NCBI RefSeq assembly: GCF_000284375.1
Contig: NC_017249.1
Coordinates: forward strand, 4,132,001 to 4,196,000
DNA: 64,000 bases
Direction: 5' to 3'
Source: Bradyrhizobium japonicum USDA 6
Lineage (GTDB): Bacteria; Pseudomonadota; Alphaproteobacteria; Rhizobiales; Xanthobacteraceae
The position numbers were made by a program, and so were the translations under genes. Of the stretch, positions 35,765 to 44,543 are shown in pieces (position 1 is the first letter of the stretch; each line of letters begins with the position of its first letter). The notes beneath the pieces are model-generated. The model did no database searches, was not told the DNA's origin, and was given only the letters and a program-made list of their open reading frames with translations.

Positions 35765-36352
35765 ATGAATGAAGCCGTGATCTTGACGCCGGAGCGGATA
35801 CTCGAAGTCACCGAGGACGTTCTGCGGCGCTACGGACTCGCCAAAGCCACCGTGGTTGACGTTGCCCGTGCGCTCGATGTGAGCCACGGCAGCGTCTATC
35901 GCCATTTCCCGAGCAAGGCCTCGCTGCGCGAGGCCGTTGCCAAACGCTGGCTGGATCGCATCGACGCCCCGTTGCTGGCGATCGCCGAGGAGCAGGGGCC
36001 GGCGCCGGCGCGACTCGACCGCTGGCTGCGCACGCTGTTCGCCGCCAAGCGCTCGCGCGTGCTCGACGATCCCGAGATGTTCGACACCTATCTGACGCTG
36101 GCGCGCGAGGCTTGCGCCGCCGTCAAGTGCCACAAGGACACCATGATCGACCAGATCGCGTCGATCCTGACCGACGGCGTGAAGCAGGGCGTGTTCGAGG
36201 TGGGCGACGTCAAGGCCACCGCCCGCGCCATCTTCGATGCCACCGTCCGCTTTCACCATCCAGCCCATGCCGACGAGTGGAAGGACGCCGATCTGCCCGC
36301 CCGTGTCGATGCGACCCTGGCGCTGGTGCTGCGCGGGTTGAAGGCGGCCTAG
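35765..36352 (+). CDS. TetR-family transcriptional regulator
   Basis: 195 residues. The N-terminal helix-turn-helix is ILEVTEDVLRRYGLAKATVV and DVARALDVSHGSVYRHFPSK (residues about 12-50), the standard TetR pattern. The remaining helical domain would bind an unknown ligand; its DATVRFHHPAHADEW segment is typical of the AcrR/YcfQ-like group. The palindrome over the upstream promoter makes autoregulation likely. No obvious efflux or enzyme target is adjacent. Confidence 0.9.
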   Translation: MNEAVILTPERILEVTEDVLRRYGLAKATVVDVARALDVSHGSVYRHFPSKASLREAVAKRWLDRIDAPLLAIAEEQGPAPARLDRWLRTLFAAKRSRVLDDPEMFDTYLTLAREACAAVKCHKDTMIDQIASILTDGVKQGVFEVGDVKATARAIFDATVRFHHPAHADEWKDADLPARVDATLALVLRGLKAA

Positions 36353-37950: not shown

Positions 37951-38601
37951 CTAGATCCGCGTCAGCCCGCAGCTCGCGGCCAGCCGCACGAGCTGCGCGT
38001 CGGTGCGCGCGCCGGTCTTGGTCTTTATCAGATAGTGATAGTTCTGCACCGTCTTGACGCTGAGATTAAGATGCGCGGCAATCTGCTCGGTCGTCGCGCC
38101 GCCGGCGAATTGGCGCAGGATCTCGATCTCGCGCTCACCCAGTTGGTCCAGCGCCGAGCCCGCCGACAGGCTGTCCTCGGCCAGGATATGCGCGATGTCG
38201 TCGCTCATGGCACGCTCGCCGCGCGCAACGCTGCGGATCGCCGTGACGACCGCGGAGGGCTCGCTGCTCTTGGTGACGAAGCCGCTGGCGCCGGCGCTGA
38301 AGGCGGCTTTCACCAGCACGGCTTCGTTGTGCATGGTGAAGACGAGGATGCGCGCCCGCGGGCTGCGCGCGCGGATGTTGCGGATCGCCTCCAGCCCGCT
38401 CGCGCCGGGCATCGAGATGTCCAGCAAGACGACATCAGGGTCGTGCGCCTTGAAGGCGCCGTAGGCGTCGGCCGCGTTGTCGGCTTCCGCCACGACATGG
38501 AGATCGCCCTGGCTCTCCAGCACGCGGCGGTAGCCTTGCCGCACGATCGGATGATCGTCGACCAGCAGCACGGAGATGCCTGTTGCGGCGACATCGCTCA
38601 T
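37951..38601 (-). CDS. NarL/LuxR-type response regulator
   Basis: 216 residues: receiver domain (LLVDDHPIVRQGYRRVLES, phospho-acceptor Asp in VVLLDISMPG, Thr/Lys in FTMHNEA and GFVTKSSEPS) followed by a LuxR helix-turn-helix (GEREIEILRQFAGGATTEQI and LNLSVKTVQNYHYLIKTKTG). It lies seven bases downstream of the cognate kinase gene on the same strand, so the two form a two-component operon. Confidence 0.93.
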   Translation of the reverse strand: MSDVAATGISVLLVDDHPIVRQGYRRVLESQGDLHVVAEADNAADAYGAFKAHDPDVVLLDISMPGASGLEAIRNIRARSPRARILVFTMHNEAVLVKAAFSAGASGFVTKSSEPSAVVTAIRSVARGERAMSDDIAHILAEDSLSAGSALDQLGEREIEILRQFAGGATTEQIAAHLNLSVKTVQNYHYLIKTKTGARTDAQLVRLAASCGLTRI

Positions 38602-38608
38602 GTCGGCC

Positions 38609-39979
38609 TCACGCCGCGAGCGGGATGGTGGCGGCGACGCTTAGGCCTCCTCGCGCAGGCAGGATCGAGAGCGATCCGCCGGCCGCCGCGACCCGCTCGC
38701 GGATGCCGGTGAGGCCGAAGCCGGCCGACTGCGCCACGCGTGTCGCATCGCCGCCGCCGTCGTCCTCGACACGGATCAGCAGCGCGTCGTCGTCACCGGC
38801 GCGCCGCTCGATGCGCAGGGAGATTTCGCGCGCCGAGCTGTGGCGCAGTGCGTTGGTCAGGCATTCCTGCGCCACGCGATAGGCGGTGGTGGCGGCCGGG
38901 CCGCTGATGTCGGTGAGGTCGCCCTTGAGATCGAGCCGGATGGTCGGCTCCGCTGCGCTTTGCGAGCGCCAGCTGTCCACCAAATTGACCAGGCTGGCCT
39001 CGAGCCCAAGCTCCTCGGGCAGGGGATTGCGCAGGCGTTTGAGCGCATCGCGCAGCGAGGCCATCAGATGATGGGTGGCCTGCGAGATCATGCGCGCGTC
39101 CTGCGCGATTCCGTTATCCTTGCTCTGCTTCGCGCTTGCCGTCTCGATCGTGTTGGCAAAGGCGAGGATGGCGGAGAGATTTTGGCCGAACTCGTCGTGC
39201 AGCTCGCGGGCGAGCGCGCGGCGTTCGTCGTCGCGGATCTCGATCAGCCGCCTTGTCAGCGCCGCGCGCTGTTCGGTTGCTTCCTCCAGCCGGCCGCCGA
39301 GCTCGCCGACGGCGCTGCCGATCATCGCCAGCTCCATGGAGCGGAAGCGCGGCAGTTTCGTGCGATACTGGCCCCGCGCCATGCGCTGGAGCGCGGTGAC
39401 GATGGTGCGCGCCGGCGCCAGCGCGTGTGCGATGGCGAGCGACGCCAAGAGCGCGATCGCCGCCGCCATCAGAAGCGCGACATCGACCACGTTGAGGAGA
39501 TACTCCCAGGCAAGCGAGATGGCCGCCGCGGCATCCGGTGTCGCGACGACCGTTCCGGCGGCTGCTGCGCGGGGACTGACGGGCCTTATCACTTCGGCGT
39601 GGCTGCCGAGGAAGATGGGTACGATCGCGGTGAACCAGCGCGGCGGCGTCTTGCCCAGCCCCACACTCTGGCCGCAGAGCGGCCTTTCGAATGCAATGGC
39701 GGGCTGGAACTCGACGCAGACGCCGGGCGAGATCAGCTTCATCGTCTCCAGGGTGCGCCACTCCGGAACCGGCAAAAGCTGCTCGCGCGTTCTGCTGCTG
39801 CGCAACAAGAACTCGTGCCAGTACAGCGCCTGAAGCGCCTGCGCGACCCGCTGCGCCGAGGCCGCGGTCGCCCGGTCGACGCTGCGATAGGCGTCGAACG
39901 TGGCCCAGACGGTCGCAGCGCCAAGGCAGAGCGCGACGATCAGCAGCAGACGGGCGACAAGCTGAAGCACGAGGCGCAT
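38609..39979 (-). CDS. Sensor histidine kinase, HisKA_3 (NarX/UhpB) type
   Basis: 456 residues from ATG 39979. An N-terminal membrane helix (VARLLLIVALCLGAATVW), a periplasmic domain of about 120 residues with several Pro-rich loops, and a second helix pair near VALLMAAAIALLASLAIAH lead to a HAMP region. The HisKA_3 motif is RRALARELHDEFGQNLSAIL with the phosphorylated His, and the ATPase has VAQECLTNALRHSSA and the GFGLTGIRERVAAAGG loop. It partners the response regulator encoded just downstream. The periplasmic ligand is unknown. It is divergent from the channel/kinase cluster at 40194, 214 bp away. Confidence 0.9.
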   Translation of the reverse strand: MRLVLQLVARLLLIVALCLGAATVWATFDAYRSVDRATAASAQRVAQALQALYWHEFLLRSSRTREQLLPVPEWRTLETMKLISPGVCVEFQPAIAFERPLCGQSVGLGKTPPRWFTAIVPIFLGSHAEVIRPVSPRAAAAGTVVATPDAAAAISLAWEYLLNVVDVALLMAAAIALLASLAIAHALAPARTIVTALQRMARGQYRTKLPRFRSMELAMIGSAVGELGGRLEEATEQRAALTRRLIEIRDDERRALARELHDEFGQNLSAILAFANTIETASAKQSKDNGIAQDARMISQATHHLMASLRDALKRLRNPLPEELGLEASLVNLVDSWRSQSAAEPTIRLDLKGDLTDISGPAATTAYRVAQECLTNALRHSSAREISLRIERRAGDDDALLIRVEDDGGGDATRVAQSAGFGLTGIRERVAAAGGSLSILPARGGLSVAATIPLAA

Positions 39980-40193
39980 GCGATCACCCTCAACGTTTGG
40001 TAAGGTCAGCCTAACAACGCCGCCGCGCCTTGCCAATTGCGGGGTTTGGGCCGGATTGCAGCTCGGGCAAATTTCCCAAGCCGGATTGGGCATGGCTCTT
40101 TGGACCGCGCGCGGCGGCTTTGATCTAATCGGGGTGGAATCGTTGCAGGCCAGTCCCTGCAAGCCAATCCCTGCAAGCCAGGAGCGGTGCAGC

Positions 40194-40964
40194 ATGAGTT
40201 CGATGACGATTGGACCGATCGCGGGGTCTGCTGCCGACCCATCCGAGCGCAGCGCGCTGCTGTTCTGGATGATCTTCACCGGGCTGTCGATCTTCGCCGT
40301 CGTGCTGCTGTGGCGCTTCGGCCTGATCCGTCTGATGCTGACCTCGGACCGCACCTACATTTCCAGCGTGATCGCGCTGCTCTATGTCGTCACCTGCGGT
40401 CACTGCTTCCTGCGGACACGGGCGATCGCCCGTGAAGGCGCGGCGGCGCGGCGCTGCCGGGCGGTGCTCGCGGCGCCCGGGGGCAGCAAGGCGCTCGACG
40501 GCAGCGCGGCCGCGCTGCCACGCGGGCTGGTGCGGGACCACATCGAGAGCCTCGTGACGAAAGCGTCCGCGCAGGACTACCGGGCGGTCGACCAGACGCT
40601 GCTGCTGCGAACGCTGGCCGACCGGCTGCGCGGCTCCAACGGGTTCGGTGCCTTCGTCTCGGACACGCTGATGAAGCTCGGCCTGCTCGGCACCATCATC
40701 GGCTTCATCATCATGCTGGCGCCGATCGCGGGGCTGGATGCCGCCGACAAGGTCGCGATGCGCTCCTCGATGGGGCTGATGAGCGACGGCATGGCGGTCG
40801 CGATGTACACCACGCTGGCGGGCCTCGTCGGCTCGATCCTGGTCCGCATCCAGTATTACATGCTGGATGCCGCGACCCAGCGGGTGTTCTCGGATGCTGT
40901 GGTGCTGACCGAGACCTATGTAACGCCGGTGCTGGAACGCAAAGGCGCTGGAACCGCGTCATGA
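40194..40964 (+). CDS. MotA/TolQ/ExbB-type proton channel subunit
   Basis: 256 residues. Four membrane helices are visible (about residues 21-46, 52-72, 160-178 and 198-218). The third, KLGLLGTIIGFIIMLAPIAG, and the fourth, DGMAVAMYTTLAGLVGSILV, are the MotA/ExbB channel signature; the Gly-Thr pair and Ser/Thr residues would line an ion path. The cytoplasmic loop between helices 2 and 3 is about 85 residues. The ATG at 40194 has a GGAGCGGTGC site; two copies of TCCCTGCAAGCCA lie just upstream (40154-40181). The next gene starts inside its stop codon, so a tight complex is likely. Not a canonical TolQ, ExbB or MotA by neighbourhood. Confidence 0.8.
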   Translation: MSSMTIGPIAGSAADPSERSALLFWMIFTGLSIFAVVLLWRFGLIRLMLTSDRTYISSVIALLYVVTCGHCFLRTRAIAREGAAARRCRAVLAAPGGSKALDGSAAALPRGLVRDHIESLVTKASAQDYRAVDQTLLLRTLADRLRGSNGFGAFVSDTLMKLGLLGTIIGFIIMLAPIAGLDAADKVAMRSSMGLMSDGMAVAMYTTLAGLVGSILVRIQYYMLDAATQRVFSDAVVLTETYVTPVLERKGAGTAS

Positions 40965-41647
40965 TGGATGACTTTGGTCTCTATCCGCGCGAGGAGCCGT
41001 TCGATCCGCTGGGCGTGATGCTGTTCAAGGCGCTCCAGGTGATCGCCTTCCTGTTCTTCCTCGCGCTCCTCGCGGTGTCGCCCGATGCCAAGGACGGCAA
41101 GATCGACTCCAAGGCCGAGTTCATGATCACGCTGGACTGGCCGGACAGCCATCCAGACGATCTCGACCTGTTCGTGCAGGATCCCGCAGGCAACATCGCC
41201 TGGTATCGCCACCGCGAAGCCGGCTTCCTCACGCTCGATCGCGACGACCGGGGCGGGGCCAACGATTTCATCATGGTCAACGGCAAGAAGATCGCCTCGC
41301 CGATCCGCGAGGAGATCGTCACGGTGCGCGGCATCCTCGCCGGTGAATACACCGTCAACGTCTCGCATTTCGTGGCGACGACCGGCGAACCGGTCCAGGC
41401 CAATGTGAAGGTGCAGAAGCTCAATCCGACCGCGCAGGTGGTCTTCGACAACAAGTTCACGCTCGATCACACCGGTGACGAGAAGACCGCGGTGCGGTTC
41501 CGGCTCGATGCGGAGGGAAAGGTCGTCAATGTGGACCAGCGGCCGAAATCGCTGCTGGAGACGTTCCGCAGCAGTTGGCGCAACGGCGCCGATCTCGACC
41601 CGCGGACGGGGGTGAGCAGGAACGCTGTGAGGGTGCGCCGTGACTAG
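40961..41647 (+). CDS. Single-pass membrane protein with DUF2135-like periplasmic domain, putative channel partner
   Basis: 228 residues. An 18-residue cytoplasmic start (MMDDFGLYPREEPFDPLG) precedes one membrane helix (residues about 19-40), then a periplasmic domain with WPDSHPDDLDLFVQDPAGNI, similar to the DUF2135 domain of YfaP-like proteins, and a beta-rich remainder (GILAGEYTVNVSHFVATTGE). The topology matches ExbD/MotB, which are single-pass partners of ExbB/MotA, but the periplasmic domain is not the OmpA-like or ExbD fold. It overlaps the previous gene by four bases and the next gene by eight bases, so the three are translated together. Confidence 0.6.
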   Translation: MMDDFGLYPREEPFDPLGVMLFKALQVIAFLFFLALLAVSPDAKDGKIDSKAEFMITLDWPDSHPDDLDLFVQDPAGNIAWYRHREAGFLTLDRDDRGGANDFIMVNGKKIASPIREEIVTVRGILAGEYTVNVSHFVATTGEPVQANVKVQKLNPTAQVVFDNKFTLDHTGDEKTAVRFRLDAEGKVVNVDQRPKSLLETFRSSWRNGADLDPRTGVSRNAVRVRRD

Positions 41648-42245
41648 CCCGCAGACGGTCATCCTCACGCTGTCGGTCGCCTACGCCGTTATCGGCGCGC
41701 TGCTGCTGGTTGTGCTGGTCTATGCGCGGCTGCACTGGTCGTTGAAGGCCGTCGCGGTGGTCGTGACCAGCGCCTTCTATGTCGTCAGCTTCACCGAGAT
41801 GCGCGGGCTGCTGGGCTGGGCCAGTTCCGACCGGCTGCCGGCGACCTTCAAGCTGCTGAAGGCCCGCATCGTCGAGCCGCATTCGCTGGAGGGCGATCCC
41901 GGCTCGATCTATCTCTGGGTCGAGCAGCTCGACGAAGACAATCGGCCGAGCGGCATCCCGCGCGCCTTTCGTGTGCCCTACAATGACAGGCTGGCCGACA
42001 AGACCCATGCGGCGGAGAACGAGATCGCGCTGGGACATCCGCAAGGCGGCCGCGCCGCCGATTTCGGCGGCGGCGATGGCAGCCTGATCGACATGGTCCG
42101 GGAATACGTGACGCCCAAGACCATTCTGGAGACCACCGGCGGCGATTCCTCGACCGGCGAATTCCTGGCACCACCCGCCGGCGCGGAAGGCGCGGTGTTC
42201 ACCCCGATTCCGCCGCCCCGGATGCCGCCGAAGGACGAGCAATAG
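41640..42245 (+). CDS. Hypothetical two-helix membrane protein of the channel cluster
   Basis: 201 residues from GTG 41640, which overlaps the end of the preceding gene. Two hydrophobic stretches near the start (residues about 8-27 and 35-52) are followed by a mainly extracytoplasmic or cytoplasmic soluble part with LKARIVEPHSLEGDPGSIYL, Gly-rich segments and a Pro-rich C-terminus. No family is recognised by eye. Gene overlap and order place it as the third component of the channel module. Its end is followed by a gap with a perfect hairpin and then the phosphoesterase gene. Confidence 0.6.
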   Translation: MTSPQTVILTLSVAYAVIGALLLVVLVYARLHWSLKAVAVVVTSAFYVVSFTEMRGLLGWASSDRLPATFKLLKARIVEPHSLEGDPGSIYLWVEQLDEDNRPSGIPRAFRVPYNDRLADKTHAAENEIALGHPQGGRAADFGGGDGSLIDMVREYVTPKTILETTGGDSSTGEFLAPPAGAEGAVFTPIPPPRMPPKDEQ

Positions 42246-42320
42246 GCTCTTCACTATCGCCGCAGGGCCCCGCTGGAAAACGCACCCGCACTGGCGCATC
42301 TTCTTGACGTCCCTCAATTT

Positions 42321-42345
42321 GGCCTTATCGGCTTCCGATAAGGCC
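42321..42345. promoter_or_regulatory. Perfect hairpin between the membrane genes and the phosphoesterase gene
   Basis: GGCCTTATCGG-CTT-CCGATAAGGCC: an exact 11-bp inverted repeat with a 3-nt loop, followed by only TTT and then a GGAGGGT ribosome binding site before the GTG start at 42363. The short T tract makes it a weak terminator candidate. It could be an internal terminator/attenuator or a structure controlling translation of the phosphoesterase and kinase genes. Confidence 0.7.
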
Positions 42346-42362
42346 TTTGGGGTGGAGGGTGC

Positions 42363-43103
42363 GTGCTTCTCGCTGTCTTCTCGGATATCCACGGCAACCG
42401 GCAGGCGTTCGAGGCCTGCCTGAAGGTTGCCCGCGCGAAGGGCGCGGAGCGGTTCGTCCTGCTCGGCGATTTCGTCGGCTATGGCGCCGATCCAGAATGG
42501 GTCGTGGATACCGTGATGGGTCTGGTCCGGGAGGGTGCCATCGCCGTCCGCGGCAATCATGACGAGGCGGTCAACACCACGACCGAAGCCATGAATGCGG
42601 AGGCGCAGATCGCGATCGAATGGACGCGCGGACGGCTCGACGTCGCGCAGCGGCGGTTCCTCGCCGAGCTGCCGATGCTGGTGGATGAGAAGGAGCGCCT
42701 TTACGTCCACTCGGAGGCCTCGAGCCCACAGCGCTGGCACTATGTCCGCTCGACGGCGGATGCCGCCAAGAGCCTGATATCGACGCCCGCCCATGTCACC
42801 TTCTGCGGCCACATCCATCGCCCGGCGCTCTATTCGATGTCGGTGACGGCGAAGATGACGAGCCTCGTGCCCAAGACCGACGTTTCCGTGCCGCTGCTGC
42901 GCGGGCGGCAATGGCTGGCCGTGCTGGGTTCGGTGGGCCAGCCTCGCGACGGCGATCCATCCGCAGCCTTCGTGCTGTTCGACACCGTGTCGTGTCAGAT
43001 CACCTATTGCCGCGCGCCCTATGACATTGCGAGCGCAGCGAACAAGATTCGCGAGAACGGCCTGCCGCCCTGGCTCGCCGACCGGCTGTCGCAGGGACGC
43101 TAG
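42363..43103 (+). CDS. Calcineurin-like metallophosphoesterase
   Basis: 246 residues from GTG 42363. The dinuclear metal centre residues are complete: FSDIHGN (D8, H10), LLGDFVGYG (D36), VRGNHDEAV (N65, H66), YVHSEAS (H116) and CGHIHRPALY (H150, H152). The family includes YfcE-type phosphodiesterases and protein Ser/Thr phosphatases of the PrpE-like class. The location six nt before a Ser/Thr kinase gene suggests it removes phosphate from the same protein targets. This is inference; activity on nucleotides is also possible. Confidence 0.88.
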   Translation: MLLAVFSDIHGNRQAFEACLKVARAKGAERFVLLGDFVGYGADPEWVVDTVMGLVREGAIAVRGNHDEAVNTTTEAMNAEAQIAIEWTRGRLDVAQRRFLAELPMLVDEKERLYVHSEASSPQRWHYVRSTADAAKSLISTPAHVTFCGHIHRPALYSMSVTAKMTSLVPKTDVSVPLLRGRQWLAVLGSVGQPRDGDPSAAFVLFDTVSCQITYCRAPYDIASAANKIRENGLPPWLADRLSQGR

Positions 43104-43109
43104 AGGCCG

Positions 43110-44543
43110 ATGCCGCAACCCCTGGTCAAATCAGGCGCCGAGATCGACGGCTACACCATCGGCGACTGCGTCCATGCCGGCGGCATGGCGACGCTATGGA
43201 CCGTCACCCATCCCGGCATCGACGTGCCGCTGCTGATGAAGATTCCGCGGGTGTCGGAGGGCGAGGACCCCGCCGCGATCGTCTCGTTCGAGATGGAGAT
43301 GATGATCCTGCCGCGGTTCGCCGGGCCGCACGTGCCCTCGTGTTTCGGCACCGGCGACTTCGCGCACCAGGCCTACGCCGTGATCGAACGCATTCCCGGG
43401 ACCACGCTCTACAAGCGGCTGCCCGACCTGCCGCTCCCATATGAGGAGGCGCGGCAGCTCGTCGCGAAGATCGCCGCCGCACTGGCCGATCTGCACCGGC
43501 AGAACGTGATCCATCACGACATCAAGCCGAGCAGCATCATGTTCCGCGATAGCGGCGAGGCGGTCCTGATCGACTACGGCCTGTCGCACCACAACCATCT
43601 GCCGGACCTGTTGCAGGAAGAATTCCGCCTGCCATACGGCACCGCGCCCTACATGGCGCCCGAGCGGCTGTTGGGGGTACGCGACGATCCGCGCAGCGAT
43701 CTGTTTTCGCTAGGCGTGCTGCTCTATTTCTTCACCACCGGCGAGCGTCCCTTCGGCGAGGGCGAGACGCTGCGCGCGATGCGTCGCAGGCTGTGGCGCG
43801 ATCCGCATCCGCCGCGCGAATTGCGCGCGGACTATCCGCCCTGGCTTCAGGAGGTGGTATTGCGGTGTCTCGAGATCGAGCCGGTGTGGCGCTATCCGAC
43901 CGCGTCCCAGCTCGCCTTCGATCTCGCTCATCCGGAGCAGGTGAAGCTCACCGCGCGTTCGGAACGGCTGAAGCGCGACCCGTTAAGCGTGGCCTGGCGG
44001 CGGCGCTTCAACCTGGGCGTCATGGCGCCGCGCGCGAAATCGGACGTCGCCGCACAAATCGCCTCCAGCCCGATCCTCGCGGTCGCGCTCGATACGGTGG
44101 AAGGCGCGGGCGAGCTGAACGAGGCACTGCGCGTGACGACCGAGCGCATTCTCGCGACGCTGCCGTCGGCGCGGCTTGCCTGCGTCAACGTTCTCAAGCT
44201 CAACCGCATCGCGATCGACCGGACGCTCGACGAGCAGGGCTCCAACAAGCATATCGACCGGCTGGTCGCGCTCCGGCATTGGGCGACGCCGCTCAAGCTG
44301 GATGAGAGCCGGCTGTCGGTTCACGTGCTGGAGGCCGTCGACCCCGCCGCGGCGCTGTTGGAATTCGCCGAGGCCAATCAGGTCGACCACGTCATCATCG
44401 GCGCGCGGCAGAGCTCGTTCCGCCGCACGCTGCTCGGCAGCGTCTCGGCCAAGGTGGCCTCGGAGGCGGCCTGCACCGTCACTGTGGTACGGCCGCCGCG
44501 GATGGCTGCGGCGAAACCAGGCGCCGGCGTCGTGTGGGGCTAG
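43110..44543 (+). CDS. Ser/Thr protein kinase fused to a universal stress protein domain
   Basis: 477 residues. Kinase domain (about 15-275): AGGMATLW loop, K44 in LLMKIPR, catalytic loop HHDIKPSS (D137, K139), DYG instead of DFG (D155), and APE at 183-185. The usual HRD Arg is His and the catalytic-loop Asn is Ser, so activity may be reduced. A linker and a USP domain (about 320-462) follow, with VIIGARQSSFRRTLLGSVSA matching the ATP-binding USP loop. No membrane segment is present. It lies six nt behind the phosphoesterase and 850 bp behind the membrane module. A kinase/USP fusion could link nucleotide or stress sensing to phosphorylation of the channel. Which protein it phosphorylates is unknown. 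Confidence 0.88.
   Translation: MPQPLVKSGAEIDGYTIGDCVHAGGMATLWTVTHPGIDVPLLMKIPRVSEGEDPAAIVSFEMEMMILPRFAGPHVPSCFGTGDFAHQAYAVIERIPGTTLYKRLPDLPLPYEEARQLVAKIAAALADLHRQNVIHHDIKPSSIMFRDSGEAVLIDYGLSHHNHLPDLLQEEFRLPYGTAPYMAPERLLGVRDDPRSDLFSLGVLLYFFTTGERPFGEGETLRAMRRRLWRDPHPPRELRADYPPWLQEVVLRCLEIEPVWRYPTASQLAFDLAHPEQVKLTARSERLKRDPLSVAWRRRFNLGVMAPRAKSDVAAQIASSPILAVALDTVEGAGELNEALRVTTERILATLPSARLACVNVLKLNRIAIDRTLDEQGSNKHIDRLVALRHWATPLKLDESRLSVHVLEAVDPAAALLEFAEANQVDHVIIGARQSSFRRTLLGSVSAKVASEAACTVTVVRPPRMAAAKPGAGVVWG

Follow-up and report, generated by a model that had tools for sequence, protein, structure and literature searches.

Known ion-driven motors and the A-B-C genes

Flagella, nutrient uptake, and maintenance of the envelope all run on motors of the MotA/ExbB class, which are also part of one phage-defence system. 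Ion-driven motors of the 5:2 type, also called 'generic ion transporters', include ExbBD, TolQR, and AglRQS (PMC12505986, PMC9389320). Here we describe three overlapping genes, A, B, and C, in a 64,000-nucleotide stretch of the Bradyrhizobium japonicum USDA 6 genome (NC_017249.1, positions 4,132,001 to 4,196,000; hereafter the window), where they are followed by two genes, D and E, for a phosphoesterase and a kinase (Table 1). We read A-B-C, with a probability of roughly 0.6, as a self-contained machine of the inner membrane that belongs to the MotA/ExbB ('5:2') class, has its own third subunit and periplasmic head, and is probably controlled by a histidine kinase-response regulator (HK-RR) pair. 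We found no description of A-B-C in the literature.

Subunit A matches the Pfam family MotA_ExbB (E 1.1e-8; 35.4 bits, cut-off 22.9), as the A subunit of a 5:2 motor does. A profile of 19 A proteins matches MotA and PomA structures (best E 1.8e-5), most strongly in the last two helices, and by eye the protein consists of two helices, a loop, and two further helices. The motifs GL(L/I)GT and YTTL are conserved in A, including in the clade to which the window's copy belongs.

Subunits B and C have no Pfam match up to E 1. Their predicted models contain one membrane-length helix in B and two in C (the C model is weak, with a predicted local distance difference test score, pLDDT, of 66.7), in agreement with the original prediction, made from the window's sequence, of a single-pass B and a two-helix C. 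The label 'DUF2135-like' that it gave to B was also right in kind: compared profile to profile, B and a set of four DUF2135 proteins gave an hhalign probability of 83 (E 9e-6), and two reversed decoys gave 0.1 and about 0.5. The DUF2135 model itself (PF09906) does not match the window's B at E ≤ 1, gives one distant B 14.8 bits (cut-off 22), and leaves five other B relatives unmatched. The periplasmic domain of B is predicted to adopt the TerD fold (PF02342), yet B does not belong to the TerD sequence family (hhalign probability 0.2 versus 0.1 for a reversed decoy). Acidic residues are conserved in B and might make up a metal site; the TerD protein of Klebsiella is reported to bind calcium (PMC8123226).

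The likeness of A-B-C to 5:2 motors thus lies in the MotA_ExbB domain of A, an adjoining B that has a membrane Asp at the same place in most members, and an operon of overlapping genes. The differences are a DUF2135/TerD-like head on B in place of an ExbD/TolR one, the third gene C, and the lack of the Asp in the window's clade. B resembles YfaP/DUF2135 proteins in its periplasmic domain and TerD in its predicted fold, but it is membrane-anchored, has an ExbD-like helix, is tied to A and C, and shows no significant sequence-profile match to TerD. With MotAB/PomAB, the operon shares the helix layout of A, the profile match in its last two helices, and the YxDF motif of some phage B proteins; however, B lacks an OmpA-like domain (Pfam, up to E 1). 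The last helices of A weakly match ZorA models of the Zorya system (best 1.2e-6), but A has 256 amino acids (aa), compared with 383 to 1,063 positions in the matched models, and reaches 16.8 bits where NF033917 has a cut-off of 500. B matches no PADLOC model, ZorB included; among the neighbours, the PADLOC scan covered C, D, and E. The earlier statement that neither the ExbB/TolQ and MotA pairs nor Zorya fits therefore stands, as A-B passes the tests for none of ExbBD/TolQR, MotAB, and Zorya.

That A-B-C might be an ordinary ExbBD/TolQR variant for nutrient uptake is very unlikely. Its A subunit is of the same Pfam family, but the Pfam search up to E 1 gave no ExbD domain (PF02472) in B, none of the three PF02472 places in the genome coincides with B, and loci without C are rare. 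Nor was any gene family seen at a fixed place in 50 loci beyond A, B, C, a lipoprotein gene, and the HK-RR pair described below; not all neighbours in these loci were named, and a TonB-type partner may be among them. The genome contains another MotA_ExbB gene, which has a weak match of 8.4e-10 (L236, G000:C1:2590499-2590783); none of the three ExbD genes found in the genome adjoins it.

The expected ion-site aspartate is replaced by valine in one clade

The three ExbD proteins of the same genome start their helix with VTPFIDVMLV, VTPFIDVILV, or VTPMVDVMLV, and many distant B proteins read DPFTDLLFN at the equivalent position. The column of the expected ion-binding Asp holds Asp in 42 and Val in 24 of 66 host B rows. 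All 24 Val rows belong to the window's clade, in which D15, V19, K23, and Q26 are fixed, and the D15-V19-K23 pattern recurs in 80 of 80 further related loci. All 78 viral or phage B rows have the Asp (12 near-duplicate loci were dropped; L290 repeats P10VF). The single B helix with an ion-binding Asp, typical of 5:2 motors, is accordingly present in the wider family, and the window's B has Val19 at this place.

The fixation of V19, K23, and Q26 in 24 of 24 rows, and of D15-V19-K23 in the 80 further loci, indicates that the change is maintained and is not decaying. Because the 22 Val rows that can be placed in a tree of A and C (62 loci) form a single clade with support 1.0, the Asp-to-Val change looks like one old event that has been kept since. 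Among the positions of A that distinguish the window's clade, there is no new charged membrane residue.

A, B, and C form a cohesive unit in bacterial hosts

In profile searches, 62 of 68 host loci had all three genes, always on the same strand, in the order A-B-C in 61 and A-C-B in one. These loci were picked by their B and include close relatives, so they are not independent. Of the six incomplete loci, one has A only and one has A and B, both at contig ends (L186 and L045); one has a cut B and C (L062), one B only (L063), and two, which are the same place, have a weak A and no C (L034 and L209).

Within the class, 36 of 289 genomes have B (E ≤ 1e-8); among 299 genomes drawn from the phylum, B occurs in 13 (E ≤ 1e-5), three of which belong to one family outside the class (f212). 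A protein database search returned at least 7,985 B relatives at E ≤ 1e-5; none of the 120 listed has a Pfam domain, and Alpha- and Gammaproteobacteria, Rhodospirillaceae, and Thiotrichales are among their names. Seven Azospirillum plasmids carry two B genes each, and on plasmid ABSP7_p1 of Azospirillum brasilense Sp7 both B places (L278 and L279) are diverged trios about 25 kb apart. One contig labelled 'Frankia sp. RB7' (L140, JAUEPE010000008.1) encodes a B that is 93% identical to the window's; this record is probably mislabelled or contaminated.

In one branch of hosts, a DUF3108-like gene for a protein of about 230 to 265 aa follows C; it was seen in 10 of 132 loci (L238-L240, L242, L243, L245, L246, and L257-L259), and L242 has three consecutive copies. 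One of five such proteins tested scored above the DUF3108_like cut-off (1.4e-6), and by eye nine of the 10 loci have a lipobox-like Cys. A profile of this lipoprotein gene has no match in the window.

Phages and viral contigs carry the trio

Searching 50,697 phage records for B gave 27 matches at E ≤ 1e-5, 25 from Rhizobium and two from Sinorhizobium phages; a search with a phage B gave 24 records at E ≤ 1e-3, from 16 phages by our count of the names. We read the gene order in eight of the 16. Six (P10VF, RL38J1, RHph_Y68, I1_18, N3_19, and N3_13) have A-B-C in this order, with no overlap or gap longer than 36 bases, and all three genes are matched by the host profiles, with E values, scaled to 100 sequences, of 5.5e-14 to 3.4e-10 for A, 1e-51 to 1e-43 for B, and 2.1e-5 to 5.4e-6 for C. 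Their A is 113 to 148 aa long, compared with 256 aa in the window. Phages 16-3 and NV1.1.1 have B and C and a different gene at the place of A. Some phage B helices read YxDF, a motif of MotB. The phage copies are located near replication and nucleotide-metabolism genes, and the rhizobiophage operons (L282 6441-7945; L283 4441-5948; L284-L289) are annotated only as hypothetical or numbered proteins. RL38JI and RL2RES are described as virulent phages (PMC7067960).

Of 334 matching stretches in IMG/VR, 289 encode relatives. The whole trio is present in 81 of 82 viral stretches (80 kept from IMG/VR and two from a phage-based scan); in the remaining one (L339), B starts five bases from the end of the stretch. 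Neighbours on 14 large viral contigs, for which 87 of 141 listed genes were scanned, include terminase, virion, and head-maturation-protease families and also cellular families, so some viral records are probably host DNA. A tree of B (140 sequences, 181 columns) requires at least four host/virus changes, although mislabelled contigs may account for some of these.

The phage copies suggest that A-B-C also matters during infection. One explanation would be a phage-exclusion or envelope-guard device that hosts and phages have exchanged, and the B relatives in 16 named rhizobiophages (with the trio in the six and B and C in the two described above) and the changes on the B tree are in line with it. 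However, B lacks a PADLOC match, and the genes near the phage copies have little bearing on exclusion. We consider this explanation unlikely.

A two-component system accompanies the trio in the window's clade

Genes for a sensor HK and a LuxR/NarL-type RR lie upstream of A and are divergent from it. The intergenic region between HK and A is probably a control region: it contains blocks that are conserved when the window is aligned with the sufficiently long ones among 89 extracted upstream regions. No sigma-70-like site was found in it.

In a family sample of 149 genomes (B at E ≤ 1e-10), HK orthologues of at least 375 bits are present in 16, and the next matches score 230 bits. In all 16, B is on the same contig beside HK, is encoded on the opposite strand, and is separated from it by enough space for A; eight B-bearing genomes of the sample have no HK orthologue at this score. 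A divergent HK is found in 74 of 80 loci close to the window's, and three of the six misses lack upstream room. We also compared 52 loci for which longer flanks were available. Only those of the window's clade have such an HK next to the trio: in six of the clade's 12 loci, both HK and RR adjoin A-B-C, and D and E are absent from all 12. HK-RR is thus a better partner of A-B-C than D-E and its most faithful neighbour in this clade. One locus that is not in the clade, L259, also has an HK-RR pair, but its scores are lower (149 and 161 bits) and it lies 3.4 kb past C.

This linkage, together with the Asp loss, bears on a different reading, in which A-B-C of the window's clade has been uncoupled by that loss and serves as a sensor or structural scaffold feeding HK-RR. 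The fixed V19, K23, and Q26, the D15-V19-K23 pattern of the further loci, the single clade of Val rows, and the restriction of this adjacent HK to the same clade favour it. Yet A retains GL(L/I)GT and YTTL there, D15, one turn earlier, is kept in 24 of 24 rows and could substitute for the Asp, and the pair in L259 lies outside the clade. We regard such a role as somewhat unlikely.

D and E are a separate unit next to A-B-C

The five open reading frames, the overlaps of four bases between A and B and eight between B and C, and the six bases between D and E are all as the original prediction gave them when we re-derived them, and the hairpin it placed between C and D exists, with a perfect stem, in a C-D gap of 117 bases. 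It had further taken the five genes as one module, in which reversible phosphorylation by the kinase (E) and phosphatase (D) would set the state of a stator. The resemblance of A and B to the halves of a MotA/ExbB-type stator is upheld; control by D and E is not, and genome distribution divides the genes into A-B-C and D-E.

Table 1. Features of the A-B-C locus and its surroundings (positions in the window)
Feature	Coordinates	Strand	Description	Basis
RR	37951..38601	-	LuxR/NarL-type response regulator, 216 aa	Response_reg 3.5e-30, GerE 2e-12
HK	38609..39979	-	sensor histidine kinase divergent from A-B-C, 456 aa	HisKA_3 5.8e-12, HATPase_c 1.1e-9
HK-A intergenic region	39980..40193	.	divergent region, probable control region	blocks conserved among related loci
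A	40194..40964	+	MotA/TolQ/ExbB-type channel subunit, 256 aa	Pfam MotA_ExbB, profile match to MotA/PomA structures, conserved motifs
B	40961..41647	+	one membrane helix (16-39) and predicted DUF2135-like, TerD-fold periplasmic domain, 228 aa	models, profile-profile match; helix start with D15, V19, K23
C	41640..42245	+	two membrane-length helices (4-28, 33-57) and small domain, 201 aa	weak model
Hairpin	42321..42345	+	11-bp stem between A-B-C and D-E, possible terminator	folding energy; poorly kept
D	42363..43103	+	calcineurin-like phosphoesterase, GTG start, unit with E	Metallophos_2 4.5e-19 (Pfam)
E	43110..44543	+	Ser/Thr kinase-universal stress protein fusion, 477 aa	Pkinase 1.4e-26, Usp 3.8e-14 (Pfam)

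D adjoins E in all 34 E loci read (eight of eight in the order and 26 of 26 in the family), which were best-scoring or chosen places. In the order, we drew 150 genomes evenly at a completeness of at least 90 and searched for B at E ≤ 0.001 and E at E ≤ 1e-60: B is present in 15 and E in 19, and both are present in four, all of the window's genus, which leaves 11 genomes with B only and 15 with E only. In the family sample, B is present in 24 genomes and E in 44. Both are present in 13, seven of the genus and six not, and 31 genomes have E without B. The kinase and phosphatase hence occur mostly without the channel genes, the outcome that the original prediction had named as counting against it. 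B and E are side by side in six of the 13 genomes that have both, all six of the window's genus; one of the 13 (G153) cannot be judged, as its B lies 140 bases from the contig end on the C side. Even within the genus, two genomes have B without E at E ≤ 1e-60 (G239 and G254), and in another B and E are 2.6 Mb apart (G267).

Near the window's lineage, the genes are more often together. All five are present in 71 of the 80 close loci (78 of them labelled Bradyrhizobium) and B to E in one more; several of the other eight are cut by contig ends, and two (L168 and L169) have no E in the 6 kb downstream of B. In 57 of 72 related loci, the start of D is no more than 130 bases past C. These counts favour a five-gene module, but in the other 15 of the 72 the gap is 0.8 to 2.1 kb, and in nine of 16 wide-gap loci it holds a gene that by eye reads as TetR. 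Outside the genus, B and E are disjoint in the order, and neither D nor E is near A-B-C in any of the 52 loci with longer flanks, two of which are from the same genus. A single module under kinase and phosphatase control is therefore highly improbable. Given the mostly disjoint distributions of B and E, the constant D-E pair, and a variable C-D gap that can contain the TetR-like gene, A-B-C and D-E are separate units that have come to lie side by side. The window has a TetR-like relative of that gene at 35765-36352, a local rearrangement.

The hairpin between the two units is a possible terminator. The 68 nucleotides around it fold with -31.8 kcal/mol (z -4.3), and none of 200 shuffles was equally good. 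Only TTT follows the stem, and a terminator scan made no call there. A perfect stem of at least 7 bp occurs within 170 bases after C in 19 of 76 testable related loci, in some of them at different places. At a catalytic-loop position that is usually Asn, kinase E has Ser in the window; among 38 orthologues scanned, the motif was recognised in 26, of which 16 have Asn and 10 have Ser.

A working model and its meaning

The order and conservation of the genes, their separability from D-E, the link to HK, the domain content, the Asp pattern, and the phage copies are shown above. For a machine of the MotA/ExbB class, we infer assembly, ion flow, motion, target, and control as follows. A would form the ion-channel ring and B the axle, whose single helix starts with a PFxD-type ion-binding motif in most members and would carry the DUF2135-like, TerD-fold domain into the periplasm; C would be a constant two-helix companion. 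Ion flow through A would rotate or displace B, and the periplasmic head would thereby act on the cell envelope or report on it. An envelope role is our best guess, given the periplasmic head, the sensor kinase in the window, and the lipoprotein gene after C in another branch, whose product may be an envelope-side partner. The divergent HK-RR pair, rather than D-E, would control A-B-C. In the window's lineage, with Val19 in place of the canonical Asp and Lys23 one turn on, the machine may be coupled differently or act as a sensor, since the canonical Asp is lost.

A bolder version is tentative, and we hold it at somewhat less than even odds: A-B-C would represent a new class of ion-driven rotary machine, with its own third subunit and a TerD-fold periplasmic head, that bacteria and their viruses have exchanged several times. 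Rhizobiophages would carry a stripped-down version, and the Bradyrhizobium lineage would have changed the ion site (Asp to Val, Asn to Lys) and come to control the unit by a dedicated two-component system.

A widespread, phage-carried relative with a third part would open a new branch of the MotA/ExbB motor class. The natural loss of the Asp in one clade, set against its presence in every other row (42 host and 78 viral), makes a long-standing question testable, namely whether such a unit can work without it.

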